The notes under the pieces were generated by a model, which was not told where the DNA came from, made no database searches, and saw only the letters and a program-made list of their open reading frames with translations. This document shows, in pieces, positions 5,948-51,647 of a stretch of 64,000 nucleotides of DNA (positions are counted from its first letter, which is position 1; each line of letters begins with the position of its first letter). This DNA is from Ectocarpus siliculosus (taxonomy: Eukaryota > Sar > Phaeophyceae > Ectocarpales > Ectocarpaceae). The stretch spans positions 4,402,774 through 4,466,773 of the forward strand of contig FN649743.1 of the NCBI GenBank assembly GCA_000310025.1, written 5' to 3'. The position numbers and the translations under genes are program-made.

Positions 5948-6047
5948 NNNNNNNNNNNNNNNNNNNNNNNNNNNNNNNNNNNNNNNNNNNNNNNNNNNNN
6001 NNNNNNNNNNNNNNNNNNNNNNNNNNNNNNNNNNNNNNNNNNNNNNN
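5948..6047. other. Assembly gap (100 N)
   Basis: Exactly 100 unknown bases, a conventional placeholder length, so the real distance is unknown. No reading frame across it should be trusted. Confidence 0.99.
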
Positions 6048-6837: not shown

Positions 6838-8068
6838 ATGCGGTGGCGGGGTACGTCAGCGACGGTGCCGCTAGCGACGTTTCAGCTCCCGGGGAGCCCG
6901 CGGCCGCCGCCCCCGGGCGACAAGTCCAGGGCTCTCGCCGGCCTAGGCCTGTCCGCGTCCAAGGGCGGGGGAACTTTCTCCGGATCCTACCAACGGCTGC
7001 CGTCGTGGGGGGGCGACGACGAAGAGGTTGGCGGTGGCGGCGGCGGCGGCGGCGGCGGGAGCGATGGTGGCGACGTTCCTCGTTCGTTGTCCATCAACAG
7101 CGACGGCGGCGGGTTCGGGGCCGGTACTAGGTCGCTCTCGGTCAACAGCGATGCCGCGGCTACAGCTCGTTCGACGGAGCGTGAGTATGTATAGATCGGA
7201 CGTTTACAGGGTAATTATCCGAGCATATCGGTATGTATGGATGTATGGATGAGAGAAAAAACGTGAGTCTATCGAACGTTGAAAAAATCCGAGCGTACGG
7301 GCATATGTGGTGGATGCATGGGCGTATGGGCGAAAGAGAAAATTGTGAGTCTGTCGAATGTTTCCAAATATATCCAAGCGTAAAAGTACGTATTGGCGTG
7401 TGGGTGTATGGACGAAAGAGAAGAACGTGAGTCTATCGAACTTTACCAATAGAATCTAAGCTTACCGGTACGTATGGACGTATGTTGGATACATGTGAAG
7501 ACGAAAGAGAAGGAGGCAAGACGGACAGGCGGATTGATCTTGGTTCGCGTACACGCTCACGCCACCCCCTGCCGGCCGCAATACGGTGGCGATGTCGCGA
7601 CCTACCGTATTTTCTACTTCGCAGCAGCAGACCAACATCACGACGAAAATACCGGGCGCTGGCCCCTGACAGTCCGCAAATCGTACCCCCTTGGCTGGTA
7701 TCAGAACCTACTCAGAACGTGAGCAGCAACCCCGGCGCCTTAGGGCGACGCAGGCCTTTCCATGACGTCGTTTTCCTTTTCGTTTGTTTCGCCTGATGGC
7801 GGCAAGCAGTGGGTCCCGCCATCAAGCGCCGTGCCCCGGGGAAAACGAGCCGAGGCCTGGGAGCATCGGGGGGGAGGGGTTCCGGGGGGCACAGCTGGTT
7901 CCTCTCGGCCAAAGACCGGCAGGTCTTGAAGCGGCGGACTATCCTTTCCAGGATCACCCCGATCGTTCTCCTGTCGAGCTTCGTCGGAGACCTCGACCTC
8001 ATCACCGACTGGACGTTCCTGAAGTATGGTTTGGCCGGGCAGGGGTAAGTGGCAGCAGCAGCAGCAAT

Positions 8069-8107
<39 letters not shown>

Positions 8108-11100
8108 AACGACGATGACCACAACTTGCAAGTGGGGGGGGTTACTCCTACTGTGTACTGCAATGTCCTGTACCATTTACGTCTGCAGTTTTTTTTTGTT
8201 TTTTTTGGCGCACGAAGAAATTTTCGGTGCAAATGTCTCGGAACACTATCGCCTGGAAAGTTGTCATGACGGGGCGATCCGATCCGCCTTCGATGTCAGC
8301 TACCCAAAGCACCTTGAACACACGGGTGCCCCATGGCTTCACCCACGAGTGTGCAAGGCGCTACAGAACGACCCCGCGCTCAAGAACCCAGGAGTTAAGA
8401 CATTGAGCGAAAAAAAAGAAAACAAAATTTTGAACTTGAGCTGCACCATTTGTGAGCTCGGTTAAGAACTGGCGACCATTCGTAGCATGCCCCGTAGGAA
8501 CCAAGAACCCCTACACTTAAAACCTATATTGCGGCCATTCGTAGCATGACCCTAGGAAAACAGTAAGAACCCACCCCAGCCTCAGCCAACACTATTAATA
8601 GCGAGTCTTAACTGCGGGCGCGTTCTGTTATTTCAGCGGAGGAGAGGCCATCCTTGGGCGGACGTTTGGTGCTCTCTGAGAAAACTTGCGGGGAGAATAC
8701 AATGGTTGAAGGACGCCTGCAAAGGTGTGGTGCTTGGAAGCGTCGAGAAGAGTGGGGGGCGGGATTTTTTGTCGCTACATGCGCCTCGCGTTTTTTGGTT
8801 GTTTGGTGCAGGTTCTTGATCCGCAAGCTGGCGCTGTTCTTCGCGATCGTCGGGACTGTCATGTGGGCCCTATCCACGACCGAGTTCTCGCTCATGAGCA
8901 AGCTCAAGAACATGTGGAAGGTGCGGCACAATTTGTTTCTCAATGTTTTTTTCCAACATCCAAAATCAAGTACCAGTATGATGAAATCTATGCTTGCGCC
9001 AGTTGCACATCAAGTTGGGCAATATTTTTACCCAGGCTGGAGGCATTGGTGTTCCCTCTCCAAAGTTCGCGAACCAAAGGGGCTGTCGTGCGAAAGGTTA
9101 CAAGCAACCGCACGCACTTGCGTATGCTGCGCAAGGTTGTCCTCAAAATAGCGTTTTTCGGAGCCGTCTTGGACGACCGGCTTGCCACAGTGTCGTCGTC
9201 CCTCTTTGTTGTGCCATACTTTTGTCGTCGTGACCCCCCCCCCCCCCCTTTCCAATGCCTACATCCACCCAACCCCAGTTCGCTGAAAACCCCCAGCACC
9301 CCCACCTCAGGTACTGTAGCCCGTCTCTGTCCTCGTCCCTCAGCAAGCCCTAATTAAATAAGTACGCCCCCCCCCCCTATGAGCAGGGCAACCCCCTGAG
9401 CAGGCTCCAGCACGTGGGTCTCGGGTGGCAGCTCCTGGCCAACGTGTTCCTCGAGGACGTGCCACAGTTCATCATCACCGTCATCACCCGCCCCACCTCG
9501 GTCACCGGCGTGCTCAACCTCTGCGCTTCCGGCCTCTCCCTGTGCGCCAAGATCGTCCACGGCTACTCCAGCCAGAGGGCCCCCTCCCTGTCTACGCAAT
9601 TCAAGATGATCGACCAGGACCCCGCCGTCACGCGGAACCTGTTCAAGCTCAGGTGAGGGAGGGGGGCGCCGTCGTTTGCGATGCGGGTATGTAACATAGT
9701 GCCCAATGGGATACGCACGCAGCACACCTTTTTATTTGCTGTTGCGGGGGGGGGGACTTCGCGTACCTACGATATCGTGAGTCCCATCGATGCCGTTCTG
9801 TCCTAATTCCATGTCGAACACAGAGCCACACCTCCGTGGGCGAACGGCCCAAAAATGTTTCTCGTGGTTCACGCGTATCCTACGGGGAGAGATGCAAGGT
9901 CCATGTGGTGCCCCGCCCCCCCCAACCTCCCAGCTTGTGGTTCATCCTTGTGCAAAGCAGCCTGGACCAGTGAAAACCCGGCACATCGTTCCGTCCCGGC
10001 ATTGTAGGGATGCGAGGTCAATGGTCTGACGGCTGCGGCATGCGTTTACATAAGTAACCCCCCCCCCCCCATTTTCGCTGGTCTTCCTTTGGTACATGCT
10101 TTTGTATTATGGAGGACACCTCGTCATTCGTCTGTTGACTGTTTTTTTCCCGTCTGAACCCCTCCAGGGATGAGGCTAAGAAGAAGGCCAAGGCAGCGGA
10201 GAAACTGGTCTACCTCGCTTGGGCCAACAGGTGAGTCGCCGGGGGCGGTTTTTTGCCGGACGGGGGGGGAGTTTTTGTTATCTCCGGTGTTTCGGGAGGT
10301 TGACGACGCAGGCACCGTCTCGTTCAAGTTGAGGAGGCGTGAATCTCGGTGGGGGCGACGGGGATGTGGTGAAGAAGCAATCCATGATGGTGTACCGTGG
10401 AGGGCGGGGGTCGTTGGACTCTCAGGCGCATCACAAGGCTGTCACACACGGACGGATGGAGAGAAAGGGCAAGGGCTCGTCAGGGGTCGGTCGATTTGGT
10501 CTTGCCGCGGAGGCACCTATCGCAGTGTGCCATGTGTCTCCTTCTAAGCGAGAGAGAGAGAGAAACACACACAGACAGTCAGACAGACAGACAGACAGGC
10601 AGAAAGACAGGCAGAAAGACAGGCAGACAGACAGGCAGACAGGCAGACAGGCAGACAGACAGACAGGCAGACAGAGATAGAGGTAGAGGAGAGACAGACA
10701 GACAGACAGACCGAGACTCGGATACTGGTTTTCTGGCTTGCGATCCGGGAGCAATCGGACCAACAGATGCTTCGGGAAGAACAACAAGACATGGTAATTG
10801 AGGCTTACAGAGCGGGGGCGGGTACTCGAATGCTCTACGTGCGCGCAATACGGATCCAACCTAGATCTTTGAAGTCGATACCGCGGTGGCATCCGAGTGA
10901 TCCGCCGTTCTTCTCCGGTTGTGTGCGCACGTTTTTGTTTCAAGACAACCCCTTTGAATCCCAGCCCTGGGCACTGGTGGACACGTCGCCTCTTTTGGTC
11001 CTCCCTCCCTCCCCCGTGCCGCACGCGCTTTGGTCGAAATTCTGTCTTGGTTGTCTGGCTTTTCTTGGGGAGAAGACGTTTTTCCTACGGCGTTACGACA

Positions 11101-14100
11101 ATGAAGTTCTATCTCCATGGTATGGGAGTTCTTTGGAAGTTTCCGGGTGTTCAGTGTTAGGACCGCGAATGCATCATCATTATCTCTTCGGGAACAAGCA
11201 TTGCTGGCGGGGTCCGGGCGCCGACCCCGCCAGTAGGATGGTCCCCCTGCACGACACAGGCAGGTTTTCGCTCCACAAAACTAATCGTACAAGTATCGAC
11301 ATCGAAACCTACGACAAGCATCGTTACACCGAACAACACCCGCAGCATCACCACAAGAACCAGATCCTCACTTCGGGACATCCACACGACAACACCCACC
11401 TGACCGATCGTCGTGCTTTTTTTTCGGCGTCCCTTTTTTGGTGTTGCGTTGTGGTTACGTCCTTGTGTCACCCCCTTGCTTCTGGTGTTGGCGTTTTTTT
11501 ACCGTTGCAGGTGCTCGACCGGGGAGCAGAAGGCGGCGGCGGTGTTCCAGGTCCTCCAGATGGACCCCACCTTCGTGGGCGGAGACCTGGAGTACATGAG
11601 GGCCGATCTCTTCTCGGGATCAAGGCTTTACATCACGGCAAGCAGCCTCACTGGTAAGCGGAGGGGGGGGGGAGGTTTAGATCGCCGCATGCTAAAGGGG
11701 CCTTCGCATCACCGCATGCGGCCTCACAGGCAGACGGGGGGGGCTGTTTATCACTGCATGCAGCCTTACAGGTAGAGTGGGCTTTAGATCACCGCATGCG
11801 GCCTCACATGTAGGCCTTCGAATCACTGCATGCGGCCTTACAGGTAGAGGCGGCGGCTTTTGATCACCCCATGCGGCGTCACAGGTAGATTTTTTTTTTA
11901 CATCGGTGCATCGCCTCACAAGCATAGGGGGGGGCTGTATATCACCGCATGCAATCTCACAGGGTAGAGGAGGGTAGAGGAGGGGGGAAACACACATTGA
12001 ACCAAACTTTGTCACTTGAAAAGACATTTCAATTCATGTTGACTGTACCAACATGCTTCCGATATCGTGTTTTCCGACGCGTGGTATGTATGCGTGCCGA
12101 TCAAGTCACCCGGCGTCATCCTGTGTCTTGTAATGCATGAAAACCCTTGAATATTTCCCGGTTCCACGCGATACTTCGGAGGCTGGCGCCATGCCTCGGC
12201 GGCCTGAATAACACTCTTCCGTGCATGCTCTTCGTCGACCCGCTTGAACGCGAGACCACCGTCACTATTGTTCCCCCCGGCCTCCGTTTTTTTTTTTTGC
12301 GGTAACCCTAATGGTAGTCGAGTAGATCATGTTTTGCGGGGTCGAAAACCCTCACTCCGCACAAAGGGGATAATCACACCACGTTGTGTTAAGTTAGTCA
12401 AGCACCCTCGCGGCAGTTACACCGTGCTTGTAACTGTCTCTGGAAGTGAAAGCACCAGAAAATAAATTAAGTCATTCGCAGCTGTCCTCCGTAAGCAAGG
12501 AAGTAAGCACAAGATGCCGAGCACCCTTAGCAGGATTCAGCGCATCCTCCATGCGACTCGCCAAATACCTCACGGTGCTTCGCGCTTGGTGATGTGAGAG
12601 CCTGGTCCGGTGAAAAACCGGCGTGCTCCGTCCCGGCTTTGTGGGGGTGCGAGGTGAATGGTCCAACGACTACAGCTTGCACGGCTATGAGTACACCCCC
12701 CCCCCCATACACACACCTACCTTCGTGACGTCCCCTCCCGGGGCCCCAGATCATGGCCTTTAGAAGAAGTCTCCGTTTTTTAGCCACGCTGAGGCTGTCG
12801 TCATTTCGTTGATCAGCAGAATAGCGCCTTCGGTACTAACGATACAGGCTCACGCAAACAACTGGTCGGCCAAATGTCAGCGTGTTGTTGTCGGCCGAAC
12901 CTTGATATTCTGGTTCTAGCCCAACATCCCCTCGCTCCCATGAACGAACCTTCGTGATCATGCCTCGTTCGTTTGCAAACCCCGTCGCGCTCAGGGCCCA
13001 TTCCGTCGCAGGTCGGCGACATGACCATTCTGCGGGCGGTGGTCTTGTCCGGCAACCAACTGTCAGGTATGCACAACTTGTTTTTTTTATTGCGACCGTA
13101 AGTTGTCGCAGGAACCTCCTCCTTCTCCCGCGCAGCTTTGAAAGATTCGTCCTCCGTGACGCCCACGGGGCCTGTGTGGTGTACGTCCTCCGTTCAACTT
13201 CCCAATAGGGAACTGCTAATGCCATTGAAAACAAGATTTATCGTTTTTTCAGCAGATATGTTCGAAACGGTTCGAAGTGTTCGAGTGCGTTGCGGGGCTG
13301 CACCCGCGTGTGCTAACAAAACTCTGATTCTCCTGTGTCCCTATCTCTGTGTTCCTGCGTCTGTCTATCTGTCTGTCTGTCTGTCTGTCTATCTATGTGC
13401 ATGCTTGTGGCGTTGTGGCCTTCTCTCACCCCCGTATGCTCCAAGGCTGCATCCCCACCGAACTCGGAAAGCTCGTCAACCTCAAGGAGCTAAATTTGAG
13501 TGAGAACACCCTCAGCGGTGAGTGCGTCCATCCCTTCGATCGGATACCGGCACGCTAAGCGTCCGCAAGAGCGTTGGCTGCGAAGCAACGGCTACTCCGA
13601 GCAAGTACTAGTACCGTATCTTGATCGAGCAATACTGATCTCTCCTTGCGACCCTGAACACTCTGTATCAAGTGTGTGTCGTAGGTCCGAAAAAGGAAAT
13701 GCTCTCCAGTCTGCGAACCCCCTTGAGAGGCGACCGGCGGCGTGTCGAGAGCGGGCGGCAGGACCTTCTTGATCTCATATTCGGAGTAATACAAAGACAA
13801 TGTTATCGTTTTGAGACCGTCAGGCTGCGGTCGCCTCGCGAGAAGCATCCTCAAGTGACCCCGAACGAGATGAGATAGATGACAACAAAGCGCCCCACTT
13901 GGTAGGGTAGTTGGGTGTTCACAGAGCCTCTTCGATTTTACGGTTTCTACGCCGTTGGTTCCAGTTTCGTTCAAGGAAAAACGTTTTCGCGGGTACACTT
14001 CGAAACGTCCTTGTCTCCGAGATGTAATGCCTTCTTGTGCGTCTGGTACTGCGAACGGTTTGAGGCTGTAGGGCAGTCGTCATCCCCTGTGAGCCCCGCC

Positions 14101-17100
14101 CCTCTAAATGGCGACGGCGAACAGCGCGACCAAGAGCGACGTAGCCATAACAGAGGGTCAAATCGGGACAAAAACACGCGAGCACGCTTTGTAATCCGCT
14201 GGCTCATCCGACAGGAGGGTTGCGGCATGGATTGGACAACAGGGGTCGAGTCTTGCGAAAGGAGCAGTCACAACAGTACGATCGCGCATCAATCCTGCTG
14301 TCCCGGGACCATTCTTAAAGAAGCCTCTCTCCTTCGTCGCTTTGCTCCATCCGGCTCGTCACTAGCTTTGGCGCACACCTTCGTTCCCTGCAGTTCATTT
14401 TTATTCGTTCTGAACCTTTCACCCCACTTTGCTGCTGCTCTAATGGTTGCATTTTTTCCCGATATGTGCGTGTGTGTGTTGTTGGCGTATATTGCAGGTC
14501 CAATCCCTGTGGAGCTTACGAAACTCGGGGCGCTCATGGTCCTGAATCTGTCTACCAACGCTCTCACCGGTAAGCGAGTATTGTAGTTGCAGGCTTCCCT
14601 TTTTACTTTTGTTTTGGAAGCTGCTCCTGTTGTGTAGTCTTTTGCGGATTGTTCTCTCTGCGGTCGACGAAGGCTGGCCATCAGCCGCGTTGCTTTCGAA
14701 GGCCGACAGTTACGCTTTCCTCGATAAGGTTACCGCGGCCTTGTTTCGCGGGTTTTCCAACGACACGTGTTCGAGCGCACGTGCCCACCACCCAAAACTA
14801 CGTCCTGTGGGAACGATTGCCCCGTCCTCTCGAGGACGGGCTGTCACTGATCTAACCGCGTAGGCACGCAAAACATGAGCACACCACGACCCCGAACTGC
14901 ACAAAGAAATTCTTACTTCCTTCTTCCTTCGCCGCAGGGTCTATCCCGGCGGGACTGTCGGATCTGCAGCTGCTGACCACACTCATGCTCGCGAAGAACC
15001 GGCTTACCGGTGAGTGCAGGTTCCGCGCGGTGATATGGTGCCTGCCGTGGTGGAAAAGTCGTTGTTTGGGAGCGTTCGCTTGGGTGTGGTCGTGGTCGTG
15101 TGAACTTGCACGGGTAGTTAGGGTGTTGTGGAGAACCGGATGGGTGGTCCTTTTTGGTCGTCGGTTCCGGTCGACATCGTGTGGCAGCAGCTGCGCCCTA
15201 CCGCGCGTTCGAGTCGACGCGTGAAGCGTTCACTCCATGGGTGGCAGCGCTTGACGGAGTTGATGCTGATCGACGTTGCCACCAAGGCCGATGTTTTCGC
15301 CTTTCGAAGAACGCGGCCCGGCATGATTGGAACGGACTGAGATGTCGAGGTTGGGGATTGTGTGAAGTGATGCCTACCGCTGCTCGGTGTTTTGGGGGTC
15401 TCGGCTGTGTTCGTTTTTTCCCGCTGGCTCTACGACATGAGCTGCAGAAAATGGGATACAACGCAAGGGACGAGACAGAGAGCGGAAACTACATACTTGT
15501 ACCTCGCAATTCTCTCTCTACAAGGTCGAACATAGCACGATGGCTGAGCGCTCTGACGCGATGCGAGGATGGTGAACTACAGATCCATGCTGCTGATGTG
15601 TTTCTGTTCATTTGTTTTTCCTGCTTCCCCCAAAGGGGAAATCCCTTGCGAGCTGGGCGGTCTCCCGGCCCTTCAGAAACTGGACCTCAGCCAAAACCAG
15701 CTCACCGGTAAGCAGGATGGCGCCTCGCCTTTTTTGTTTTTTCTTTCGCCTGTACAGTAGGAACCTTGGGTGGCCATTGACGGATCCATGAAGACATATG
15801 TTATTTCCCGGTGGAATGTGTAGCCGCCGAAAAGGGTGAAGACGGGAAGTAGACCTGACGCCGGGATAGTGGTGACACAGCCGCACGACAAAACGGAGAG
15901 GTGTGCCTTCCGCTATAACCAACCGCTTGAGGGTCTCAACCGTTACACACTTGCTGCCTTGGGGCACAAAAGACGAGAATATCGTCTTTGTCGCTTGTTC
16001 TGCCGTCATCACACCTCGCCTCGAACCCCGTAGCCAACTCGTGGGCGAGGATAAATGTTTTTTCCCTTCTTTTTTCGTCTGCCTACGGCTACACAACCAC
16101 GCCCGGAGCCCGCGGCTCCGTGGCTTGGTAGTCGATATAATCATTTTGCAGAGGACCCTTGTGGTTGTTGCCGTTGTTGCCGTCGTCGTTGTTGTCCTTG
16201 TCATTGCTGCAAAAAAAATGACAGCTTTTTTTGTGACGTTCGTTACCTTCAACCAACCTTGCGCCGTGGGTGTTGATCAGCCCTCACCTTGGAGACCGTT
16301 CAGAAGCCTTACGGGAAACGTAGACTTTTGTAGGGTGTGAGCCAGCCCCTCGTTGGCCACATAAGTCTCAAAAGAGTTGCCGATACACGACGAAGTCCCG
16401 TCACTGACTTTTTTTTTTCTCGTCTTCCTCCAAGGTCGGGGCGGGTTGTTTTCACCGCTCCTCACAACCTCTCCCGGACCCACCTCCGCCCAGCTACCTT
16501 CCCAGCTTGAACCCCAGCTGCATTCCCAGTGTCACCCTACCCCATGCTCTTGAAGGCTCCACATCCGTGACCCATGGCCGTCGCTGTCTCAAGTTAGCGA
16601 ATTTTTCGACCTCTGCTGCGCTTTTCTTAGTTTACTCCGCATCCGTCATCTCGAACGAAGTCAGCTCCGCCTACCGGTAGGATTCTAACAATATATCGTG
16701 CTGGTGGAACTCCGCGCCTCCCCGCAGAGTTCGGGGTAAAATGTGGGGACAACGGTAGCCCACGACCGAACGATGATGGCATAAACCCTTGCTTGATTAA
16801 CATGAACCGCCTTGCCCAATCTTCGGGGGGGGGGGGAGGGGGGCGCACTCGGACCTCCAACAGCATACCCCTCACAAACACCTATCCCGCTTGTCCCCAA
16901 AGTCTATCCGTAGTTGCTTTGTCGCTTCTAGATTGTCCCGCCCACCCAGTTCCCAACATGTTATTGAGTTCCTCAGTAGGTGGATGAAACACCCACTGCG
17001 TAGTCGCACACGGAGGACAACCTCTCAGGAAGACCGTATTGTAGTAGGCGCTCGGCTATTGGTTGTTGTTGGCGGTCACCTTGGTATGGTGTTGCACCCT

Positions 17101-18736
17101 GGAGAATGGGATGGATGTCTATCGCTCGGTCTTGGAGTGGAAAATGGTGAATTGATTGCTTATCGGAGAAAAAGGGGATGGCTAGTGCGCAGTCTTGCAC
17201 TAAAAAAAGAGTGAAATCATGGCCAATTTTCGGAGAACGTGATGTATGTCTATCGCTCGGTCTTACAGTGGAAAATAGTGAAATGATGATCACATCTCGG
17301 AGAACGGGGTGGATGTCTATCGCTCAGTCTTACAGAAGAAAAAGAGTGAGATGCCCGTGTCTGCCATTTGTCGGATTTATGGTTGGCCAGGCCCCATCCC
17401 GGAAGAGCTTGGGGAGGGGCTCAGCAACCTCCAATCGATGTCCGTCGGGAAGAACAAGCTCACAGGTAGGAGAGACTGTGAGACGGGAAATCTTTGGTGT
17501 CCATTGAAATCAGAGAGAACATCGCTGGGATGGCGTGCGGGGGATACGTAAGTTGTACAAACTCGTCTTTGTCCTCCGTGAGGCTGCTGCTGTAGTCGTG
17601 TGCTCTGGATGTTTTTGGTTGGTTCTTCCGGTGGAGGAACAACAAATTACTGTAGAAGGATTCTTCCTCCGTTCTTTCTTCTCTCCCTTCCGTTTTCTCT
17701 CCCTTCCCTTTTCTCTTCCTCCGTTTTTTTTTTCTCTTTTTTCCTTTTTCCTCCTTCTTTCTGACTGTTTCGTGCATTTCTCTCGCGTACTAACATAAGA
17801 TACCACAGCCCCTGGACTGATTTGCAGCGCTCGATTACTCCTCGACCAAGAGGATGCCGAAGGCAAACGATATGTGTTCGGAAAGCTCTCGAACCGACGG
17901 TTCCAAATGCGCCGTTTTCGGCACCGTTACTGTTTTCGTTGCCGAGTAATCAAGCTTTGAAAATCTGTCCAGGGGTCGTGATATCTTATGCAACTTACTG
18001 CATCGCTTTCAAAATGCTCCTTTCGCTCTCTACATCATTCCTTAATTCTTGTCTATGATCCCCGCCGCCCCCCCTCCATACCCTGCACCGCTTTGTCCTG
18101 TTGGCTTCTCTGTCGATTTCCGCACTTGTGTCTGCACCTGGCTGCCTTGAACCTTGTTTTTTTCGTTTGTTGCTCTGAACTGAACGACGTGTAGGCAGCG
18201 TCCCTGAGTCCCTGCGGAGTCTTTCCCAGCTCAAGTCACTGGTCGTTGCGAGCAACATGCTTACTGGTGAGGGTCACGGGTCATTCTGTCTGTCGCCAAG
18301 ATCGGGCCGGAGCTGTTTGTATCTTTTATCTTGACGAGCCAGAATACGTTGATTGTGGCCACCAAACACTCGGTTGTAGGGGAGTGCGCTGCGGCAGTGT
18401 TTGTTGCTTTCAGCCTGTGCATCGTTTCTTACGCATTTGATGGTGCCTTTGCGGGACGTTGTGGTACGTTGTGTTGCTTCAATGCTGCTAAACGTTTCTC
18501 GAAAGCGATTTGCCAACAGCACAGCACTCCCCACCGGCGGATACCCCCCTTTCTTTCTCGATGCTATCGTCAACGGCAATGCTACATAGTGGCATCACTA
18601 TTGACTCGAGATAAATCCCACGGTGATTTTTGTGAGTTGTACGAATCATTGATGCTCGGAACTAGGTTTGTTTTTGTCTTTTCTCGGTCTTCTCCTGGTG
18701 CAGATCCCCATTCGCACAATGCTAATCTTTGTGGTG

Positions 18737-18796
<60 letters not shown>

Positions 18797-18986
18797 CGTA
18801 CTGGTTTTCGATGGCATGGCAGGCGCGAAAGAGGCCGAGGCGGATCTCAAGCCCGACCTGCACCCCGAGTGCGTCACCGACTTCCTTCCTCAAGAAGAAC
18901 CGGAAGAGGAGGAGGAAGAAGAAGAAGAAGAAGAAGAGCTTCCGGAGGAAGTCGAAGGCGAGCTGGAAACCGATCTCATGGTATAA
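6838..18986 (+). CDS. Multi-pass membrane protein fused to an exon-per-repeat LRR domain (14 exons, 609 aa)
   Basis: Exons: 6838-7180, 7810-8044, 8812-8920, 9387-9652, 10168-10230, 11511-11653, 12995-13066, 13446-13517, 14498-14569, 14938-15009, 15636-15707, 17391-17465, 18195-18266, 18823-18986. They join to 1830 nt, with every intron GT-AG and in phase. The ATG at 6838 follows an in-frame TAA. Residues 1-114 are low complexity (proline- and glycine-rich, with the repeat RSLS(I/V)NSD). Residues 115-317 hold three or four membrane spans. Residues 318-386 are a linker ending in an LRR-like cap (LYITASSLTG). Residues 387-555 are seven plant-type LRRs, and an acidic glutamate-rich tail ends at TAA 18986. 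The likely role is recognition or signalling at a membrane (inferred from LRRs plus membrane spans). No kinase, GTPase or NB-ARC domain is visible. Confidence 0.8.
7195..7500 (+). repeat. Tandem repeat of about 88 bp in intron 1, each unit with a GTGAGT motif
   Basis: Three to four diverged units follow the exon 1 donor. Each has a core of the type gtgagtctatcgaa preceded by aaagagaa, with units centred near 7265, 7350 and 7430. The repeated GTGAGT is a copy of a strong 5' splice site sequence. Confidence 0.7.
8050..8110 (+). repeat. CAG-rich trinucleotide repeat directly behind the exon 2 donor
   Basis: An imperfect (CAG)n/(CAA)n tract begins about five bases after the donor at 8045. It is intronic in the model, since reading through the donor breaks the phase match with exon 3. 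Confidence 0.85.
9935..10065 (-). mobile_element. SINE head fragment
   Basis: Related to the tRNA-like heads of the SINEs at 5357-5795 and 12288-12705 (shared tgtagggatgcgaggtcaat core, followed by a C-run), with no body or A-tail. It lies in intron 4 of the membrane-LRR gene. Confidence 0.55.
10565..10720 (+). repeat. (CAGA)n microsatellite in intron 5 of the LRR gene
   Basis: Imperfect CAGA/CAGG tetranucleotide tract, interrupted near 10675-10690. Confidence 0.9.
11660..11975 (+). repeat. Intronic minisatellite with CAG|GTAG motifs
   Basis: About seven diverged units of 40-48 bp immediately follow the exon 6 donor. Each contains atcaccgcatgcggc and then a cctcacaggtag-like end, so most units carry a CAGGTAG string resembling an acceptor fused to a donor. 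G-runs of 6-9 bases separate several units. Confidence 0.8.
12288..12705 (-). mobile_element. tRNA-derived SINE, full-length copy 2
   Basis: Collinear with copy 1 (5357-5795) across head, body and A-tail (T-run at 12288-12298 on the plus strand). It sits in the intron between the exons ending at 11653 and starting at 12995, in opposite orientation to the host gene. Confidence 0.75.
14790..14880 (-). mobile_element. tRNA-like SINE head
   Basis: The minus strand carries a box A-like GCGGTTAGATCAGTGAC segment, a self-complementary cccgtcctcgaggacggg hairpin and a box B-like GTTCCCACAGGAC. It is the same unit as at 23805-23900 and 24650-24760, including the shared aaaacatgag end. It is intronic in the LRR gene. 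Confidence 0.6.
17095..17350 (+). repeat. Tandem repeat of about 70 bp before LRR exon 6
   Basis: Three to four diverged copies of a unit containing gatgtctatcgctcggtctt, then ggaaaat.gtgaaatgat and tcggagaa. It ends about 45 bp before the acceptor of the 75-nt LRR exon. Confidence 0.75.
17794..17990. mobile_element. MITE, family 2, copy 1
   Basis: Terminal inverted repeats begin CATAAGATA and end TATCTTATG. They continue inward as CCCCTGGACTGATTT on the left and AAATCTGTCCAGGGG on the right. A relative with the same CCCCTGGACCGATTTTCAA arms lies at 60161-60331. At 197 bp with no coding capacity and long inverted ends it fits a MITE. It is inserted in the intron before LRR exon 18195-18266. 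Confidence 0.75.
18737..18796 (+). repeat. (CCTG)15 microsatellite just upstream of the last acceptor
   Basis: Fifteen perfect units end 26 bases before the acceptor of the final exon (18823), so the repeat occupies the polypyrimidine-tract/branch-site zone. Confidence 0.95.
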
Positions 18987-23089: not shown

Positions 23090-23690
23090 CGCCCCCTAGG
23101 TGGCAGTGCCGCATGTACGGTATGGGAGAGGAGAGGTTGCCGAGAAAGGCTTAGGAGGCGAAGTGGACAAACAAGAAGAATTGGTATACCAACCTACGGA
23201 GTGCGTTAATGTTGTAGATGACGCATGGAAGGGGGTCCAACTTGACAAAGGTGATACACTGGAGAGGGGAGGTCTAGAGAGGTTCAAGGAGAAGATATCT
23301 GTTGTTGCTTTGGCGAGAGAGAAGGACAGGATCAAACCAAAGAAACCAAGGACACGGAGGGTCTCGATGTGTACGGAATATCAAAGAAGGGATATATTTA
23401 AAGAATACCTACATGGAGGGCCAGTGGATGCAGAGACAAAGCTGAAGGTCAAACCTAGGACTGGGGATGTTGGCCTTTGAGAACGTAGACGAAGATTGAG
23501 GAAGGTAGACGATGAAGACGACAAACCCAGGTGTGATTGCGGCTCCGAGGGCGAAGACCATCTTCATGTACTTGCGGAATGTCCGTGGTACAAGAAGGAG
23601 AGGGAAATTAACATGACTGAGCTAGCTGGGAAAAAAATTAGAAGAAAAAGTACAGAAAGAAAGACAATTGACGAATGTAAATAGCCAGGA
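23090..23690 (+). pseudogene. Non-LTR retrotransposon ORF2 C-terminal fragment, copy 1
   Basis: A frame ending at 23480 and a second, shifted frame ending at 23684 together resemble the tail of a LINE-type reverse transcriptase. The second part has CDCGSEGEDHLHVLAECPWY, the CxCG...H..xxC zinc-knuckle-like motif found downstream of many reverse transcriptase domains. The catalytic part is absent and the frame is broken, so it is a dead fragment. It is followed on the same strand by an antisense tRNA-like segment (23805-23900). Confidence 0.6.
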
Positions 23691-23804
23691 GTAGACGGTA
23701 GCTGTACTGGGGCATAGGAAATGGGTTGAAAATAAGGCGGAAAGTGATACCGATGGGAAAACATGTTTGAGCGACCTTTTTGGCAACGTAGGAAGGAACG
23801 ATTG

Positions 23805-23900
23805 GCCATCGGTGATCGAACCTGTGGGAACAATGCTCCGTCCTGTCGAGGACGCGTGGTCAACGGTCTAACCGCTAAGTAAGGCTGCCAAAACATGAGA
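23805..23900 (-). mobile_element. tRNA-like SINE head behind LINE fragment 1
   Basis: Read on the minus strand: box A-like AGCGGTTAGACCGTTGACC, a middle hairpin (cgtcctcgacaggacg) and box B-like GGTTCGATCACC with tRNA-like spacing. Confidence 0.6.
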
Positions 23901-23954
23901 GAGAGTACACCCCCCTTCGGATCCAACTCCTACGATCGGGAAGAGGCGTAAGTA

Positions 23955-24760
23955 GGTTAAAATGGCAGGTAGGCCGTATGTTGTACGATGTGGGAAAGGA
24001 GAGATTGCCGAGAGAAGCCTAGGAGGCGAAGTGGACAAACAAGAAAAATGGAGGTACCAACCCGGAGGGAGTGGATTAAGGTTGTAGACGGCGTAGGAAG
24101 AGTTCAAAATCGATTAGGTTGGTACATTGGAAACGAACGGTAGATCTAGAGGGGTTCGAGAACAAGAAATCAGCTTCTTTCGCCCAGAGAGAACACCATA
24201 TAACAAAAGGATCCAAGGATAAGGAGGGTCTCCATGTGTACGGATGTTGAAAGAAGGTATATACCTACTACATGGACCAATGGATGCAGGGAGAAAGCCC
24301 AAGGTCAAATTTTGGAGTGGGGAAAACGGCCTTCGAGAACATTGACGAAGATTCAGGAAGGTAGACGATGAAGACGAGTTCAATGTGAATGCGACTCCGA
24401 GAGCGAAGACCGGGTTCATGTCGTTGCGAAACGTCCGTGTTGGGCGACAAGGACAGAGAAAGGTACATGACTGAGTTGGACATGTAGAAGAAAAGGTACA
24501 GGGAGGTGTTTGAGGCATGGAATAGCCAGGGAAAACGATGGTAGCTGTACTGGGGCATAGGAAGTGGGTTGAAAAGGCGGGAAGTGATATCGATATCGGG
24601 TAGATCGGCTAGGGAGAACATGGTTTGGCCACGTTTGACAAAGTATTTGGAAGTGGGAAGGAAGGATTGGCATCAGGGATCCTGTTGAAACATGGATGCG
24701 TCCTTTGGAAGACGTTGGTCAATTGTCCTACCGTTAAGGCATGGGAAACATGAGAGAGAG
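23955..24760 (+). pseudogene. Second tandem LINE + tRNA-like unit
   Basis: A decayed repeat of the 23090-23900 unit. It shares gccgagagaagcctaggagg, gcgactccgagagcgaagac and, at the end, the antisense tRNA-like segment (24650-24745) followed by catgagagagagtac. Frameshifts and deletions are more numerous than in copy 1. The roughly 850-bp spacing and same orientation indicate a tandem duplication inside the transposon. Confidence 0.6.
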
Positions 24761-25599: not shown

Positions 25600-26802
25600 A
25601 ATGCCATAGGTTTGGGTCGGGTCGGTTGGGTTGGGGTGAGGGTTATATCCTAGCTTTGAGACGTGGTAAAAATAGCACAGCAGTTTATCCATCGGGGTAC
25701 TGTGGCCCTGGTGGTGTAGCCACGAAGTGTCCCATGGAAAATTCCCGTCAACCGTTGCTTTTGACCAAGTCGTAAGCACCCCTCGCAGGAGGGGTGGATA
25801 GGGGACCTCAGGGAGAGGGACCCTTCTGTGTGACCACGGATAGGAGTAAACGGCACAGGTGCTGTGAGCGCTGATTTGAAGTGAAGACATTTAAATATAA
25901 ATAAATAAATATGTAATGCCTCCCAGAGGGTAACTGCTGTGTGCAGGCAGACGAATATGCGGCCTGTTGATACTGCTGTGTAGTAGTGGTAAGGAAATTG
26001 TGATGCCTGCGTCGTTCACGGGGAACCCATGTGAGGCGGACAAGGTATTTCGACAGAGTTGTCTCAGATTCTATACATATCCTTTTTGGCTACATGCACA
26101 GTTCTCGCGATAGAAATCCGAAGGCAAGCACCGCAGGAGGGATGGGTAGGGGCTTCAGGAGGAAGAAACCCTTCTGTGTGACCGCGGACTGGATCTCCTA
26201 CCTGACAGAAATGCTGTCATGTGGTGATGAAAACAGTAATAATAAGGGTACTGAATAATGTATCGTCAAGGAAGGGAATTGAACACTCGACCACGTATGC
26301 ATTTCCTCCTGAGCAGCAACAATGGGTTTGTCCCTTACCCATGTATGTCCAAGCGATATAGGGTGAGAAACATCGTTTGTTTGCGTACATGACAAAGACG
26401 GTGATGTCGAAGCACATACCAATACTCAGTAGGCAAGGAGACTTGGAGGTCGCCATAAGTAAGAACACCGCGCTTCGGACGCCAGTGTTGTTTTCTCATC
26501 GTGAAAATGATCAGCCGGAATCCTAGAGTCAAAATATTTTGCAAAAGCAACCAGACAAACTGGTCTTGTGTTTTATCCCTGCGAAGAGTCACAGGACTCA
26601 GCAACAACAGCGCAATGCTTTTCTCTCGTACAAACGGAGACCGCCCAACCAAACACGATAGTCTACACAGCGTTCAATGCGCAAGGCACCGACGACCGTG
26701 ATGTACACTCCGACATCCCGCCGAAACGATTGCAAGTTTCGCGAGTGCATACCCTCAGCTTTCAGCATTTTTTGCCTTTTTTTCTTGCTTGCATCAGATG
26801 AT
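25600..26802. other. Spacer with short diverged direct duplications
   Basis: The segment cccttctgtgtgaccacgga and its context near 25790-25850 recurs near 26137-26200. A segment with gaaggcaagcaccgcag near 26110 echoes 25235-25265. No exon was recognised. The region next to 26803 should hold the promoter of the following gene. Confidence 0.5.
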
Positions 26803-29800
26803 ATGATGACGATAATGGGAGATCGCAAGGCGATTACGCCGCCCCCCTGCGTCATGCCGAGAACGGCGAACACGGCAAGTGCTTCGAGGAAAGGCGGTGG
26901 TGTCGTCGTCCGGGTGTCAGCAACCGTCAAGGCCGGGAGCCTCTTTCTTTTGTTGCTGCTTGCTGGGTGGACATTTCCTGGTGAGAGAAAAACACTTCAA
27001 AGGCTGTTGCTGTGATCGGAAGACATGTTTCAGGGATAAATTTCTTGTGTACAAACGCCAGCACCTCACATGTCCTGTTGCGGCATTTTCTTTAACCCTA
27101 GAGTCTAGTGTCCTGTTGCGGCATTTTCTTTAACCCTAGAGTCTAGACACCTAGAGAGAAAACCGATAGATGATCTGTCGATCACAGATAATGTTGTTGT
27201 GTGTCGGGAGGGGTTCGGTCGCCCCGAGATTTCGCGCCCGGCAGAACCACCACAATGGAATGTTTTAATGACGACGACGACGACGACAGACAGACAGGCA
27301 ACAGCGTTAACCCTGAGAAACGGGTAGCCAATCCGCAGAACGTGCTCTTGTTTGATCGGAAACGGGGCGAGAAACGAAGAAGAAGCAGGGAAGTTTGTGC
27401 GCATGAGCCGTATGTGCGCTTTGAACGATGCTGCTGGACGAAGCGAGCTACTATAGTGTCTGTTAACGGGGTTGACCGCGGGCATCCTGTCGCGCCGTCC
27501 TACCGCCCTCGTGACCTAACAGGACCTCTCTGACTTTTTCTTCTCCCCCCTCCGATATTGCGATGCGGCGCATGGCTTGATAGGTTAGACCACATGCCCG
27601 GCGAACCGTGTTCCATTTTTGATAATGTCATGCCCAAGGTCGGAGTCGGTACAACATCCACCCAGCTCATCCCCACGTTGGGACCGCCTTCGGGAGGACA
27701 TTTCATTTATCTCCGAAATAGAGAGGGAATTTCGTATCCCTCACCCTAACCCCAACCCCCAACCCCCAACCCCCTACTAAAAGCAATCTAGTTTTCCTCG
27801 CGAAGAGGCTACTTCAATGTTGACCCCCCCAAAAATGGCATTTGTTCACGCAGCCACAGCTGCGATCCAACCGTACACGTTGGAGGTCAGAACGCGCAAC
27901 GCGACCAACGCCGGATCGCTCGACGAGGTCCACCTGTCCTTCTGCGATGGGGGTGGAGACGACTGCGTCATGGGGCCGGAGAACGTGTACAACTCCATGG
28001 CGGAGCTGGCAGAGATCGGGACACGGGCCACCTTTGAGATACCGCTCGCATACGAACCTACGGCCATGTCAATCAGCATAGTCGGGATTGACGCGTGGTG
28101 AGGGGTGCTTCCTCTGAGCCCAAGATTGTTGTGCCGGTTCGCCTTCGTTGGTTGCGGTTTGTGTGGCGGTGTGTGGGATGGATGTATTGTTTGTTTTTTT
28201 GTTGATTTCGATGAAGGCATCCAGCCGCTTCGCCCGCTGTCGCTCGGGCGTGCTCAGACCTTCATACCGTATCGTATTCCACAATAGATGCCACACCCGC
28301 AAAAGATACCGTCCCACTGACCACACACGCTGACAAACGTTTCACGGCTCAACATGACTTCAAAGCGTTATAGTACTCTCAGATGGTGGGGTCACCGACG
28401 ACACCCCCTTCCCCACAGAAAAACATCCCGACGACAATATGTTCCTGAAACAAACGTCGTGTACGGTACACGGTGGGTCGAAGTAGTACTGTGGGGTAAC
28501 ATCAGCATGACATCGAGCAAACCTGCAGCTTTGATGAGCGGTAATTCGTCAGGGTTGGGGATAATAGTTGGGTGGGGTCGATGTGACTTGTGACACCTCA
28601 CGTCATCTCTGCTTCACTTACACATGGCCTTCGAACTCGGTCGTCTTCGCGTAACAGCTAGATCCAGCTTCGCCGGCGTGGCCCGTCTTTTCCCCTCCTG
28701 ACAGGTGCTTCGACGAGGCCATTTGGAACGGCGGGACAAACCTTCTCGGTAGCGGGGCCAGGGTCTACCTCGATGGAGACTTGGGAGAGAAAGGCTGCAA
28801 TTACGGTGTACACTTTGACACTGGCTGGTGAGTGAATGCTTCCCACGGTGGCAGTAATAACCCGCGTTTAGTCTTTAGTCGTAGGGACAGGGTTACATCG
28901 AGGAACAGACGGGCATTCCCTGTAGCGAGGCTTCTGTGGTGTAGCGTTCTGTTTTTGCTTCGCCAACAAGCTTAGCTCCGCACCGCACTTGTGCAGCGCG
29001 CTGCTGTTGTTGGCATCCCTCAGCATCCTCTCAAGGCCTACCTCTGTCAGCACACACAGCATCCTCTCATGGCCTACCTCTGTCGGTACGCACGATTCTC
29101 AGGTTCTACCCCTGCCAAAGCAGGTGGCGGTTCTTCAACCTGCCAGGGTCAGGTGAGTAGTAGCTAAGAACCCCCAGAGAACGAAGGGGTTGGGCATCAG
29201 AAGAATCAGCGAGAGGAATGTCGCGGGGTGATGCAACGAAAGAGAGCGTTTGGTGGAACATGGAAGTTAAACGGAACGGTTTGAACCCGTGGCATGGACG
29301 GGGACATGAAGAACCGGCAGCGGGGGAGGGGTGGAATCACGATCGGAGGAAACCAGGGGGGGACGGATACAGGTAGGGATGAGGCAAAAGGCATCATCCT
29401 ATCGTTTCTGCGTGTGCAGACTCCTATTCAGCGACTGCTTGTCAAGCACGACCTATGGTTTGGTTGTCTTCTTTCTCCCCTGTTTTCACCTCCTCTCCTC
29501 ACGGGTGACTGCGGTGCCTCTAGACGAAAAGCCCATCGCGCTTCACGCAAGCATGTGCGTCGCGTGTTTTTCCGGCACCCACCCCTTGATCCTCTTCGCA
29601 GACCCTCCGCAAGATGCACGCATGTCGGCGACCATGCATGCAACTACAGCAAAAGCTCTCTATTAACCCTCGACCTCCCCCCGCTGCCGCAGACGACTAC
29701 GAGTACGAGATCAAGGTAAAACCGTGCGATAGCGCAACGCCTAGCGGGTCAGCATCGCTGTCGCAGCAGGAGGAGGAGGCGGCGGCGGTGAGGGAGTCAT

Positions 29801-44182: not shown

Positions 44183-46105
44183 TCAGACGTACACGTTTTC
44201 AGACCTGGGCACGCGAGCCGATACCCAGGGAGCGGTTGGTGTCTGCGTGCTACTGGCGGCGAGGCTCCACTGCGGCTTGGAGATCGGCTGTGCGACCACA
44301 TCCAGGCAGACGCACACATTCGGGGCAGTCTGGGTGCTGCTGGTTTTCACCCTCCCCTGCGGCTTGACGCTCGGTTGTGGGGCCGATGGGGGCGCACATT
44401 GCAGGAGAGGAGGGGGCGAATTCTCGGCGAGGAAGGCGCTTCCAGGGCCTGGCAGAGCTGAGCCACTGGCCGGTGCTCCACTCCCGTCCACCTTTCCCTT
44501 CAGCAGACAGGCGTTGGTGTCGCTTGCCGCACTCCCGTCCACCTTTCCCATCGGCACACAGGCGTTGGTGGCGTCGCTTGCCGCGCTCCCGTCCACCTCT
44601 CCCATCGGCACACAGGCGTTGGTGGCGTCGCTTGCCGCACTCCCGTCCACCTTTCCCTTCAGCAGACAGGCGTTGGTGATGTCGCTTGACGCACTCCCGT
44701 CCACCTTTCCCTTCAGCAGACAGGCGTTGGTGTCGCTTGCCGCACTCCCGTCCACCTTTCCCTTCGGCACACAGGCGTCAGTGGCGTCGCTTGCCGCACT
44801 CCCGTCCACCTCTCCCATCGGCACACAGGCGTTGGTGATGTTGCTTGCCGCACGCCCGTCCACCTTTCCCTTAGGCACACAGGCGTTGGTGATGTCGCTT
44901 GCCGCACTCCCGTCCACCTTTCCCATCGGCACATAGGCGTTGGTGAGGTCGCTTGACGCACTCCCGTCCACCTTTTCCATCCGCACACAGGCGTTGGTGA
45001 TGTCGCTTGACGCACTCCCGTCCACCTTTTCCATCGGCACACAGGCGTGGGTGATGTCGCTTGCCGCACTCCCGTCCACCTTTCCCATCGGCACACAGGC
45101 GTTGGTGATGTCGCTTGCCGCACTCCCGTCCACCTTTCCCTTCGGCACACAGGCGTCGGTGATGTCGCTTGCCGCACTCCCGTCCACCTTTCCCATCGGC
45201 ACACAGGCGTCGGTGGCGTCGCTTGCCGCACTCCCGTCCACCTTTCCCTTCGGCACACAGGCGTCGGTGGCGTCGCTTGCCGCACTCCCGTCCACCTTTT
45301 CCTTCGGCACACAGGCGTTGGTGGCGTTGGTGGCGTCGCTTGCCGCCCGGGGAGAAGCTACAGCCAAGGTCGCTGTGGCCGGTGTCGAAAGTATCTGCTC
45401 TTGCCGCCCCAGGATCCACAGCAGTCTGCCGGCCATGGTGGTGATGGCCAGCTCCGACCACAGGCTGACGACGATCCTCAGCAACCCCACGAGGCCACAG
45501 GCACAGACGGACAGCCCACGGATCACGGTGGCAGTGGCTGGAACAACCACGGCGGACAGCGCTTGGGACAGGATCACCACCACCTCCGCCGTCGCCGCCG
45601 CGAGACCGCCGGCGTAAGGGGAAAGCACCCGGATGATAGTCATCACGTGAATGACCACGGCAGACAGCCCACACCAAAGGGTGGCAAAGAGCCCCGCCGT
45701 TGCCGCCGGGAGGCCGCCAACGAAGGAGGAGAACACCCGGATGACGGTCGACGGATGAACAAGCGAGGTAAACAGCCCACGCAGAAGGTTGCCCACGAGC
45801 CCCACGGTCGCCGCCAGGAGACCGGCAGTGAAGGAGGGAAGCGCCAGGATGATGGTCGTCGCGTGGACGAGCAAGGCAGACAGCCCACACAAAAGGGTGG
45901 CGACGAGCCCCGCCGTCGACACCGTGACGCGACCGAGTGCAGCGAAGAGTTCCCAGAGGAAGGCGGTGGCGGAGGAGGTGAAGGAAGGGAAGGCCAGGGG
46001 CAGCACCCAGTATCCTGCGTAGCAGAGAGCCGTGAAGGCCCACACTGAGAAGAGGGCCCTCGCTGACGAGTAGCGTTCCTCTTGGAGCTGGTCAGCGAAG
46101 AGCAC
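44183..46105 (-). CDS. Hydrophobic protein with 16 tandem Cys-containing 17-18-residue repeats
   Basis: Open for about 640 codons; no family recognised. The N-terminal third is very hydrophobic and made of about four tandem 40-45-residue units of the type GL.AAT.GL...L..GLSA.V.H..TIIRVLS...G, giving perhaps eight membrane spans. Then come 16 repeats of consensus ASDATDACVPKGKVDGSA, nearly all with one Cys, followed by a Pro/Ser/Thr-rich end with two related SSTQTP/SSTQTA motifs. The open frame starts without ATG (GTG at 46105). A CAG acceptor before 46087 suggests a separate 5' exon that was not resolved. A possible ATG at 46199 does not splice in phase. Confidence 0.55.
   Translation of the reverse strand: MLFADQLQEERYSSARALFSVWAFTALCYAGYWVLPLAFPSFTSSATAFLWELFAALGRVTVSTAGLVATLLCGLSALLVHATTIILALPSFTAGLLAATVGLVGNLLRGLFTSLVHPSTVIRVFSSFVGGLPAATAGLFATLWCGLSAVVIHVMTIIRVLSPYAGGLAAATAEVVVILSQALSAVVVPATATVIRGLSVCACGLVGLLRIVVSLWSELAITTMAGRLLWILGRQEQILSTPATATLAVASPRAASDATNATNACVPKEKVDGSAASDATDACVPKGKVDGSAASDATDACVPMGKVDGSAASDITDACVPKGKVDGSAASDITNACVPMGKVDGSAASDITHACVPMEKVDGSASSDITNACVRMEKVDGSASSDLTNAYVPMGKVDGSAASDITNACVPKGKVDGRAASNITNACVPMGEVDGSAASDATDACVPKGKVDGSAASDTNACLLKGKVDGSASSDITNACLLKGKVDGSAASDATNACVPMGEVDGSAASDATNACVPMGKVDGSAASDTNACLLKGKVDGSGAPASGSALPGPGSAFLAENSPPPLLQCAPPSAPQPSVKPQGRVKTSSTQTAPNVCVCLDVVAQPISKPQWSLAASSTQTPTAPWVSARVPRSENVYV
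44490..45345 (-). repeat. Coding minisatellite of 51-54 bp, 16 units
   Basis: Each unit carries ccgtccacctttccc(a/t)tc (plus strand) and a gtcgcttg(c/a)cgcactc junction. Unit length is a multiple of three, so all frames stay open, and the array generates long false frames on both strands. Units vary at a few positions only (V/L, P/L, M/K, N/D). Confidence 0.9.
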
Positions 46106-50084: not shown

Positions 50085-51647
50085 TTAGGGCCTATTGGTG
50101 ATCGGACGTGGTCCAACGACACGTCGCCACTTGCGCACCTGAACGGTGTTGGGTTCTCCCCACTTGTCGTAGAGCTCGAAGATCCAGACAAGAATTCGAA
50201 TCGGAAATGTCATGCGGTTGGTGCATACGAAGAAAAGCCCAGCTGCCGCCACGTACACCACCATCACCCAGGCCATCAATGCCGCTGCAGTCGCAGCAAC
50301 CCCCAAGGTCTTCCACGAGACTGATACCAGCTGAAACGTGAGTGGCAGACGACTCCGAAACACGGTGACCCCGCGTGACGCCCACACCACTGATGCGCTC
50401 CATCCACCCGTCTCAGCGATACGGTCAACGACCATCGCAACCAACCCTGCAGTGAACATGGCCGTCGCCGCGCGGAAGGGGTGCCAACGCGGTGACTCCG
50501 CCCCGCGCCCAGGCGACCTCTGGTGGAAAACGGTCGAGTATACCCACGTACCCACGGCAACCATTCCGTTCGTGATGCTGCTTATGACGTCAAGAGTATA
50601 CGAGCGCATGTAGGCCCCGGAACCCAGCACGACCGACCAGCATAAGACCTCCCTCCAGCCAGACACAAAGTTCGCCGCAACTTGCTCTGACACCCACCAC
50701 ACCAGCCCCCCCAGGCCATCGACTACAACGATCTTCGCCACAACTGCCACCACCGCCGGGCGGAGGGTGTGCCAGTGATACGGCGTCGCCGCGCGTCCTT
50801 GCGGCAACCGACCCCGAACTCGGCACATCGCCAGCATCGTCATAGAAATGATGTCGTTCGTGACCATCCTCATGACGCCGAGAAAGAGCGGCATCAACAT
50901 GCCCACAACCACCCAGCGGTAGTCGTACCACCAAGCATTCCACTTAGCCATATCAGATTTTGACATCACTTTCATGTACGGGCTGGACTCATCTATCGGC
51001 GTGATCTTCGACGTGGCCGCCAGGATCACCACCGAAAGAGACATCCACGTCTCCTCGACGATAGAGAGCCAGGTCAGTAAGTCCACCGCCCGTGCTCGTG
51101 ACACTTGGTTCCGAACAACCGAGAACCCCCCGGTAAGCACCGAAGCCACCCAGTTCTTGATCCTGCTTGTGACGTCTGACCGCAACATTCCGAACGCCGC
51201 CAATGCGACGTACGTGCAGATGCCCCCCGTCCAAGAGGAAGTTGACCTCACCCAATCACGATCTGACACCCACGACACCAACGCCCTCGGGCCATCCACC
51301 ATGGCGATCTTCACCACAAGCACCACTCGCCCCACGCGGGAGGGGTGCCGGCGCCTTGGCTCCGCCGCGCGCCCGTGCGGCACCCGACCACGAGCCAGCG
51401 ACATCGCCAGCATGGCCACAGCAACCACCTTCATCTCGACCATGCTCTTGACGGTAAGAACCAACAGCAACAACCCGACCACAGCAATGCCAAGGTGCTT
51501 GTATTCCACCCAGGACAACATGTCCGAGGCAGCCGAAGCGGGTGCTCCAGGCGCTGAATCGCCACAAATCTGAGGCTCGTCATGGGTTGCAACATGGCGC
51601 GCTCCGATCCGGCTTGAGGAGGACGGGCGAGAGAGTCCGTTCGTCAT
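50085..51647 (-). CDS. Intronless multi-pass membrane protein with internal duplication
   Basis: 520 codons from the ATG at 51647; the frame is open back to at least 51782 but without an earlier ATG. No family recognised. The N-terminal 40 or so residues are polar (TNGLSRPSSSS). About ten hydrophobic segments follow. A module of about 160-170 residues occurs twice and then again in part: each begins (A/T)MLAM...RGR(V/L)P(H/Q)GRAA(E/T)P, continues to K(I/V)..VDG...LV.WVS and contains Y..DV(I/T)S.I.N. The third, partial unit reads SPGRGAESPRWHPFRAA. The C-terminus is hydrophobic and then basic. With the repeat protein at 44.2-46.1 kb it shares only the theme of tandem membrane modules. Confidence 0.55.
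   Translation of the reverse strand: MTNGLSRPSSSSRIGARHVATHDEPQICGDSAPGAPASAASDMLSWVEYKHLGIAVVGLLLLVLTVKSMVEMKVVAVAMLAMSLARGRVPHGRAAEPRRRHPSRVGRVVLVVKIAMVDGPRALVSWVSDRDWVRSTSSWTGGICTYVALAAFGMLRSDVTSRIKNWVASVLTGGFSVVRNQVSRARAVDLLTWLSIVEETWMSLSVVILAATSKITPIDESSPYMKVMSKSDMAKWNAWWYDYRWVVVGMLMPLFLGVMRMVTNDIISMTMLAMCRVRGRLPQGRAATPYHWHTLRPAVVAVVAKIVVVDGLGGLVWWVSEQVAANFVSGWREVLCWSVVLGSGAYMRSYTLDVISSITNGMVAVGTWVYSTVFHQRSPGRGAESPRWHPFRAATAMFTAGLVAMVVDRIAETGGWSASVVWASRGVTVFRSRLPLTFQLVSVSWKTLGVAATAAALMAWVMVVYVAAAGLFFVCTNRMTFPIRILVWIFELYDKWGEPNTVQVRKWRRVVGPRPITNRP

Follow-up and report, generated by a model that had tools for sequence, protein, structure and literature searches.

A brown-algal gene joining a predicted four-span membrane module, with motif-level likeness to XK-related proteins, to an exon-per-repeat LRR array

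In a 64-kb stretch of the Ectocarpus siliculosus genome (C18:4402774-4466773, hereafter the window), a membrane module is followed by an array of LRRs, each on an exon of its own, in what is very probably one gene. Searches of the 189-Mb genome (492 contigs) revealed two paralogues with the same organization. The product may be a membrane-anchored cytosolic LRR sensor built on a half-XKR-like four-span scaffold, a reading on which we consider the evidence to be evenly balanced.

The initial annotation had proposed a 609-residue frame spread over 14 exons of the forward strand, at 6838-18986. This model was confirmed after manual placement of the splice sites and a check with a script: all of them have AG acceptors and GT donors, and the 609 codons contain no stop or frameshift. 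Direct reading revealed an in-frame TAA two codons upstream of the ATG. Exon 1 (6838-7180) encodes a glycine-rich, probably disordered N-terminus without a signal peptide-like stretch. Exon 2 (7810-8044), which is conserved in both paralogues, encodes a basic stretch and TM1 with DxDxxxDW; its acceptor at 7810 yields the 609-residue protein, while an alternative tandem acceptor at 7807 would yield 610 residues. TM2 is encoded by exon 3 (8812-8920), and exon 4 (9387-9652) encodes TM3 with LEDVPQF, TM4, and the start of a predicted cytosolic linker. The linker continues through a helix encoded by exon 5 (10168-10230; 63 nt, symmetric, phase 2-2) into exon 6 (11511-11653), which holds its remaining part and an LRR N-cap (SRLYITASSLTG) and can be aligned with paralogue A. 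LRRs 1 to 7 then occupy exons 7 (12995-13066), 8 (13446-13517), 9 (14498-14569), 10 (14938-15009), 11 (15636-15707), 12 (17391-17465), and 13 (18195-18266), and exon 14 (18823-18986) encodes a C-terminal LxPxC stretch and a poly-Glu tail, followed by the stop codon.

The two ends of the predicted model, glycine-rich exon 1 and poly-Glu exon 14, are its least secure parts. For the N-terminal sequence shared by the paralogues, MLRLxYLAxLY, no counterpart was found on the forward strand between positions 1 and 9 kb of the window, and the likeness of exon 14 to the terminal exon of paralogue A does not exceed chance (919 of 2000 shuffles scored as high). An assembly gap of 100 N lies at 5948-6047, ca. 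0.8 kb upstream of exon 1, and could hide an alternative upstream first exon. In the intron just before exon 12, a 67-bp tandem repeat (3.7 copies) is found at 17101-17342; the acceptor of exon 12 has a weak pyrimidine tract.

A tblastn search of the genome with the membrane module returned nine matches: five to exons of the window gene, two with E >1, and two to new loci. The latter, paralogue A (C13:3080181-3080891, reverse strand; 44% identity over the matched stretch, E 4.5e-50) and paralogue B (C13:3044093-3044638, reverse strand; 31% identity over the matched stretch, E 2.0e-13), lie 36 kb apart on contig C13. Paralogue A has 8 exons coding for 536 residues; its 1096-nt first exon holds the module and is followed by six 72-nt LRR exons, all in phase 1-1, and a short terminal exon. 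Paralogue B, as far as it was followed, consists of an 811-nt first exon with the module, eight 72-nt LRR exons, and one 81-nt LRR exon. Genome queries with each of the paralogues gave no further member (a single match apiece, at E 0.21 and at E 8), and searches of the viral_contigs and genome_contigs sets gave no relatives. The module-LRR genes are thus a small family of three members. Introns inside the module are present in the window gene only, while the introns between LRRs are alike in kind in all three genes. In the window gene, introns split the module over 7810-11653; each paralogue has it on one exon, and at three other loci of the genome (C477, C476, and C8) the XKR domain is likewise in one open frame. 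Either gain of introns in the window gene or their loss in the others would explain the difference. The first intron of paralogue A has an apparent GC donor (AAAG/gcaagg, C13:3080159).

The relationship of the module to XK-related (XKR) scramblases was evaluated at the level of motifs and profiles. One structural paper (PMC8298096) describes XKR9 as two repeats of four spans (eight in all), with a hydrophilic TM3 kinked at PQL and short outside loops. According to another (PMC8500837), scrambling is markedly reduced in alanine mutants of Xkr8 residues D26, D30, E137, and E141, and also K134 and R183. Matching residues to Xkr8 by motif, we found that the counterparts of D26 and D30 form a DxxxD motif in TM1 of the window gene and paralogues A and B (DLITD, DLFAD, and DVVTD, respectively), and that the counterparts of E141 and the PQL kink form ExxPQ[LF] in TM3 (EDVPQF, EDIPQL, and EDLPQL), with PQF instead of PQL in the window gene. 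The places of E137 and R134 of Xkr8, matched by eye, are occupied in the modules by Asn and by Leu, Leu, and Pro, respectively; these two features are absent. From end to end, the motif pair covers 80-82 residues in the three modules and 90-96 in the algal XKRs, and is present in three of four of the latter, the exception being the XKR on contig C16.

The motif pair, which like the XKR blocks described below was chosen after the likeness had been noticed, appeared in 2, 93, and 24 of 200,000 hydropathy-preserving shuffles of the three modules, and in 3, 21, and 22 of 200,000 full shuffles. Of the 1186 open frames in the DNA examined that were 100 aa or longer, 8 contained the pair; each was a module or an XKR frame, and once overlapping loci are merged, they correspond to five distinct genes. 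Ungapped XKR blocks gave z values of 3.5, 2.8, and 1.7 relative to shuffles (1, 3, and 19 of 400 shuffles were as good), with seven control stretches at z −1.0 to 1.4. The TM1 and TM3 blocks fell on homologous columns in all three modules; the third block did so in the window gene and paralogue B, and was two columns off in paralogue A.

No confirmation was obtained from profile methods (hmmscan, hhalign, hmmsearch with decoys, and a PDB profile search), by each of which XKR homology failed. The Pfam XK-related family (PF09815) had no match up to E 10 to the window, A, or B modules or to their consensus, and none up to E 1 to the whole window protein; the module alone matched no Pfam family and no PDB sequence. 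Alignment of the module with algal XKR profiles by hhalign had a probability of 0.4%, and column-shuffled decoys scored as high in 40 of 200 (local) and 112 of 200 (global) cases. An XKR HMM run on the window, A, and B modules was equalled by 43, 1264, and 996 of 2000 decoys, and a module HMM run on the four XKRs by 66, 542, 597, and 580 of 2000; the scores thus lie mostly within those of the decoys. The PDB profile search with the module returned seven sequences, none of them an XKR; they included parvalbumins, a virion polymerase, and bicaudal D, and were taken as chance. The algal XKRs are themselves far from solved structures: one had no PDB match at E 1, and it took a profile of three sequences to reach XKR9, at no better than E 0.091.

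The XK-related hint given by the initial annotation thus stands at the level of motifs (DxxxD and ExxPQ[LF]) and falls at the level of profiles, no Pfam family, XK-related included, having matched the module. The module and XK-related proteins such as XKR8 and XKR9 share DxxxD in TM1, E and PQ[LF] in TM3, the order of four spans, and, as predicted here, cytosolic ends. In contrast to XKRs, the module has only four hydrophobic spans, one half of the eight-span, two-repeat fold, lacks a counterpart of E137 and a Pfam or profile match, and has an LRR array attached. On balance, we consider the module probably kin to the N-terminal half of XKRs; since profile searches do not confirm homology, we do not claim the window gene as an XK-related member.

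LRRC8 volume-regulated anion channels have four TMs followed by cytosolic LRRs. The lack of a profile-level XKR match, the shared gross order of four TMs and then LRRs, and the predicted topology with both ends inside are all consistent with a module that is a four-span domain unrelated to XKR, serving as an anchor or as an oligomeric channel that cytosolic LRRs regulate in the manner of LRRC8. This is a serious alternative, though in our judgement it falls short of an even prospect. Neither the window protein nor the paralogue modules match Pannexin_like (PF12534), and the Pannexin_like search of the genome was empty, although the controls were silent too; in addition, all three modules contain the XKR motif pair. 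The window gene also differs from LRRC8 in having its LRRs on separate exons.

As to topology, the initial annotation had left the choice between three and four spans open. Four hydrophobic stretches align across the window protein and both paralogues, and four spans could be read in each of the three. When four spans with both ends inside are assumed, the K+R counts inside and outside are 12/4, 10/0, and 8/1 for the window protein, A, and B, respectively. TM1 and TM3 are weakly hydrophobic (KD 0.87-1.36) and contain conserved acids, and a three-span reading is therefore possible. The module is best read as four spans with cytosolic N- and C-termini, and with both ends inside, the LRRs are predicted to be cytosolic. 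Both the topology and the XKR kinship are supported, short of proof. The term "receptor", used in the initial annotation, would accordingly have to mean an intracellular sensor.

Repeats of the type GxIPxELGxLxxL resemble plant extracellular LRRs, and this likeness, along with the three-span reading that weakly hydrophobic TM1 and TM3 allow, would fit LRRs placed outside the cell, as in plant LRR receptors, with the module as an anchor. We consider such an arrangement unlikely. By hydropathy, none of the three proteins starts with a strongly hydrophobic, signal-like stretch (the largest 19-residue mean is 0.94), the positive-inside counts favour both ends inside, and the C-terminal tail is acidic. 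Plant RLKs and RLPs, moreover, begin with a signal peptide and carry their LRRs on the N-terminal side of a single span, whereas in the window gene the LRRs are C-terminal of the module and no signal-like N-terminus precedes it.

That the window locus is one gene is best supported by the paralogues: module and LRRs share a strand at each of the three loci, with the module first and a phase-1 junction between the two. The proposal that a membrane module and an exon-per-repeat LRR array are joined in one gene is thereby borne out. Direct observation covers the open gene structure, the existence of three family members, the junction that they share, and the exon phase. A model joined by hand and predicted from DNA alone, with a 1.3-kb intron between exons 6 and 7, might in principle fuse a membrane gene with an adjoining LRR gene; the recurrence of order, strand, and phase-1 junction at two other loci, the termination of exon 6 in an LRR cap in phase 1, and the frame open across all 14 exons make this very improbable. 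Least probable of all is a decaying copy without function, for although the gene is known here only from its DNA, its 609 codons are uninterrupted, its splice sites are all AG/GT, and its module residues are conserved with the paralogues.

The seven LRRs had each been assigned to a 72- or 75-nt exon in phase 1-1, and exons 7-13 were found to agree in full: each encodes one LRR, all are symmetric, six are 72 nt long, and exon 12 is 75 nt long. When all 64 kb of the window were scanned for phase-1 LRR exons, 12 matches emerged: the seven known exons, which scored 9-10 out of 10, and five more, each of which reached the minimum of 7. After base shuffling, three versions of the window yielded 0, 2, and 1 matches at a score of at least 7. 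In Pfam, the matches of the window protein up to E 1 belong to LRR families only (LRR_1 at 2.2e-21, LRR_8 at 2.2e-20).

Because the exons are symmetric, repeats could be removed or added without a frameshift, and this part of the array claim holds. The six 72-nt LRR exons of the window (the 75-nt exon being left out) have a mean nucleotide identity of 49% and a maximum of 56%, and thus bear no sign of recent exon duplication. The number of repeats differs between the genes, at 7 in the window gene, 6 in paralogue A, and 9 in paralogue B, which suggests gain and loss of LRR exons over long times, and exon shuffling is a plausible route to diversification of the LRRs. The 20 exons of the module family did not show variation to be concentrated on the concave LRR face; the LRR-XKR set described below gives a hint of it, but its 14 exons, which include one from the other strand of C477, are too few for a claim. 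An LRR search of the same genome gave 42 matches, and nine 10-kb stretches on other contigs contained 8 exon candidates with a score of at least 8. With at most two candidates per stretch, none of these nine stretches holds an array like that of the window.

The exon design itself is known from the brown-algal LRR-ROC-COR (ROCO) genes. As Teng et al. 2024 (PMC11378527) describe them, these have 72-bp LRR exons, one per repeat, in a register of the first 2 nt, 69 nt for 23 aa, and 1 nt, with the consensus LxxLxxLxLxxNxL and a varying number of repeats; the same paper lists a further 15 sequences of Saccharina japonica that are not ROCO, the majority of which have nothing but LRRs. Alternative splicing and diversifying selection of the LRR exons are further marks of the ROCO type. 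The window gene shares with ROCO genes the 72-nt exon design, the register, the consensus, and the varying repeat number, and differs in that ROC-COR is absent (Pfam up to E 1) and a membrane module is present instead, with the LRRs C-terminal of it. A COR-A search of the genome gave one weak match. The scaffold is, as the initial annotation had it, other than LRR-GTPase or NB-ARC-TPR. In the open-access literature, among the matches listed (titles and abstract openings; subscription papers lie outside this scope), no brown-algal XKR-LRR gene and no such module was described. The gene sets a known exon design on a membrane scaffold that we did not see described among those matches.

The same genome contains candidate genes in which LRR exons are coupled with full-size XKR domains. 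Searched with PF09815, the genome yielded 17 matches up to E 10, the strongest of them at E 4.8e-10; five loci (C477, C476, C8, C16, and C30) exceeded the cut-off, and in direct Pfam scans, the open frames on C477 and C8 scored 57.9 and 55.3 bits (cut-off 24.8). The XKR exon starts with an LRR tail (xIPxx[LV]xxxxxF), directly after AG and in phase 1 on C477, C476, and C8, and one codon further on C16. The upstream scan covered C477, C8, and C16, with C476 and two C30 loci outside it, and at all three loci read it found same-strand candidates for 72-nt LRR exons upstream of the XKR (5, 4, and 4, respectively); two of those on C477 are 88% identical. Thus, the genome appears to couple LRR exons with XKR domains, LRRs first. 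These candidate genes resemble the window gene in having 72-nt phase-1 LRR exons and a scramblase-family membrane part in one gene region, and differ from it in their order, with a full-size XKR domain after the LRRs; this domain is open in a single frame on C477, C476, and C8, and split on C16. The start of the LRR-XKR gene on C8 was not found in the DNA read there. LRR-exon candidates are also present on the strand opposite to the LRR-XKR genes, one on C477 (L052, 979-1050, +) and two on C8 (L051, 1240-1311 and 3633-3704, +); these could represent inverted copies or belong to a second LRR gene.

How such a protein would work can be outlined as follows, sensing, pairing, and output being what we infer. 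A four-span module like TM1-TM4 of XKR would anchor the protein, with its N- and C-termini in the cytosol, and the LRR horseshoe would hang from TM4 through a linker of ~100 residues. Binding of a ligand or a partner to the LRRs would probably alter the state of the module through the linker. A lipid path would require a partner, either a second copy of the same protein or a full-length XKR, since half an XKR is without the second repeat. The output, as the XKR likeness would suggest, could be lipid scrambling or a changed membrane leak. Since LRR exons are frame-neutral, the binding face could change by evolution or splicing without harm to the module.

A broader proposal, which we regard as doubtful though worth stating, is that brown algae set exon-per-repeat LRR arrays on scramblase-type domains in both orders (half-XKR-LRR and LRR-full XKR), that the products would be intracellular, possibly immune, sensors whose output is lipid scrambling rather than kinase, GTPase, or NB-ARC activity, and that a half-XKR dimer would restore the two-repeat fold. 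Brown algae became multicellular independently of plants and animals, and little is known about their recognition systems. If LRR exons did join scramblase-like domains, these genes would be candidate sensors beyond the two published scaffolds, and it could be asked directly whether LRR engagement moves phosphatidylserine. A free-standing half-XKR would also bear on the origin of the two-repeat XKR fold.

Several other features were noted in the window. Promoter and Rfam scans yielded nothing of use. Two similar broken stretches lie at 23100-24700, one of which looks by eye like the Cys/His tail of a LINE-type reverse transcriptase. Forward-strand exons at ~26800-28830 have the look of a secreted protein, with a hydrophobic start followed by a Cys-containing domain (...HLSFCDGGG...); the 124 residues scanned had no Pfam match at E 0.1. 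A 640-residue open frame on the reverse strand (44183-46105), with hydrophobic N-terminal stretches, runs over a 54-bp tandem repeat (44479-45323, ~16 copies); several other frames are open there, and its only Pfam match, to the tape-measure family TMP_2, is below the cut-off and likely repeat-driven. Another reverse-strand open frame, of 565 residues (50085-51782), has several hydrophobic stretches and no Pfam match above the cut-off. In the genome at large, the EsV-1-7 cysteine motif family, which is linked to brown algae, is strongly expanded: 14 control genomes gave 0 candidates and this genome 880, the best 150 of which were scored and all lay over the cut-off.
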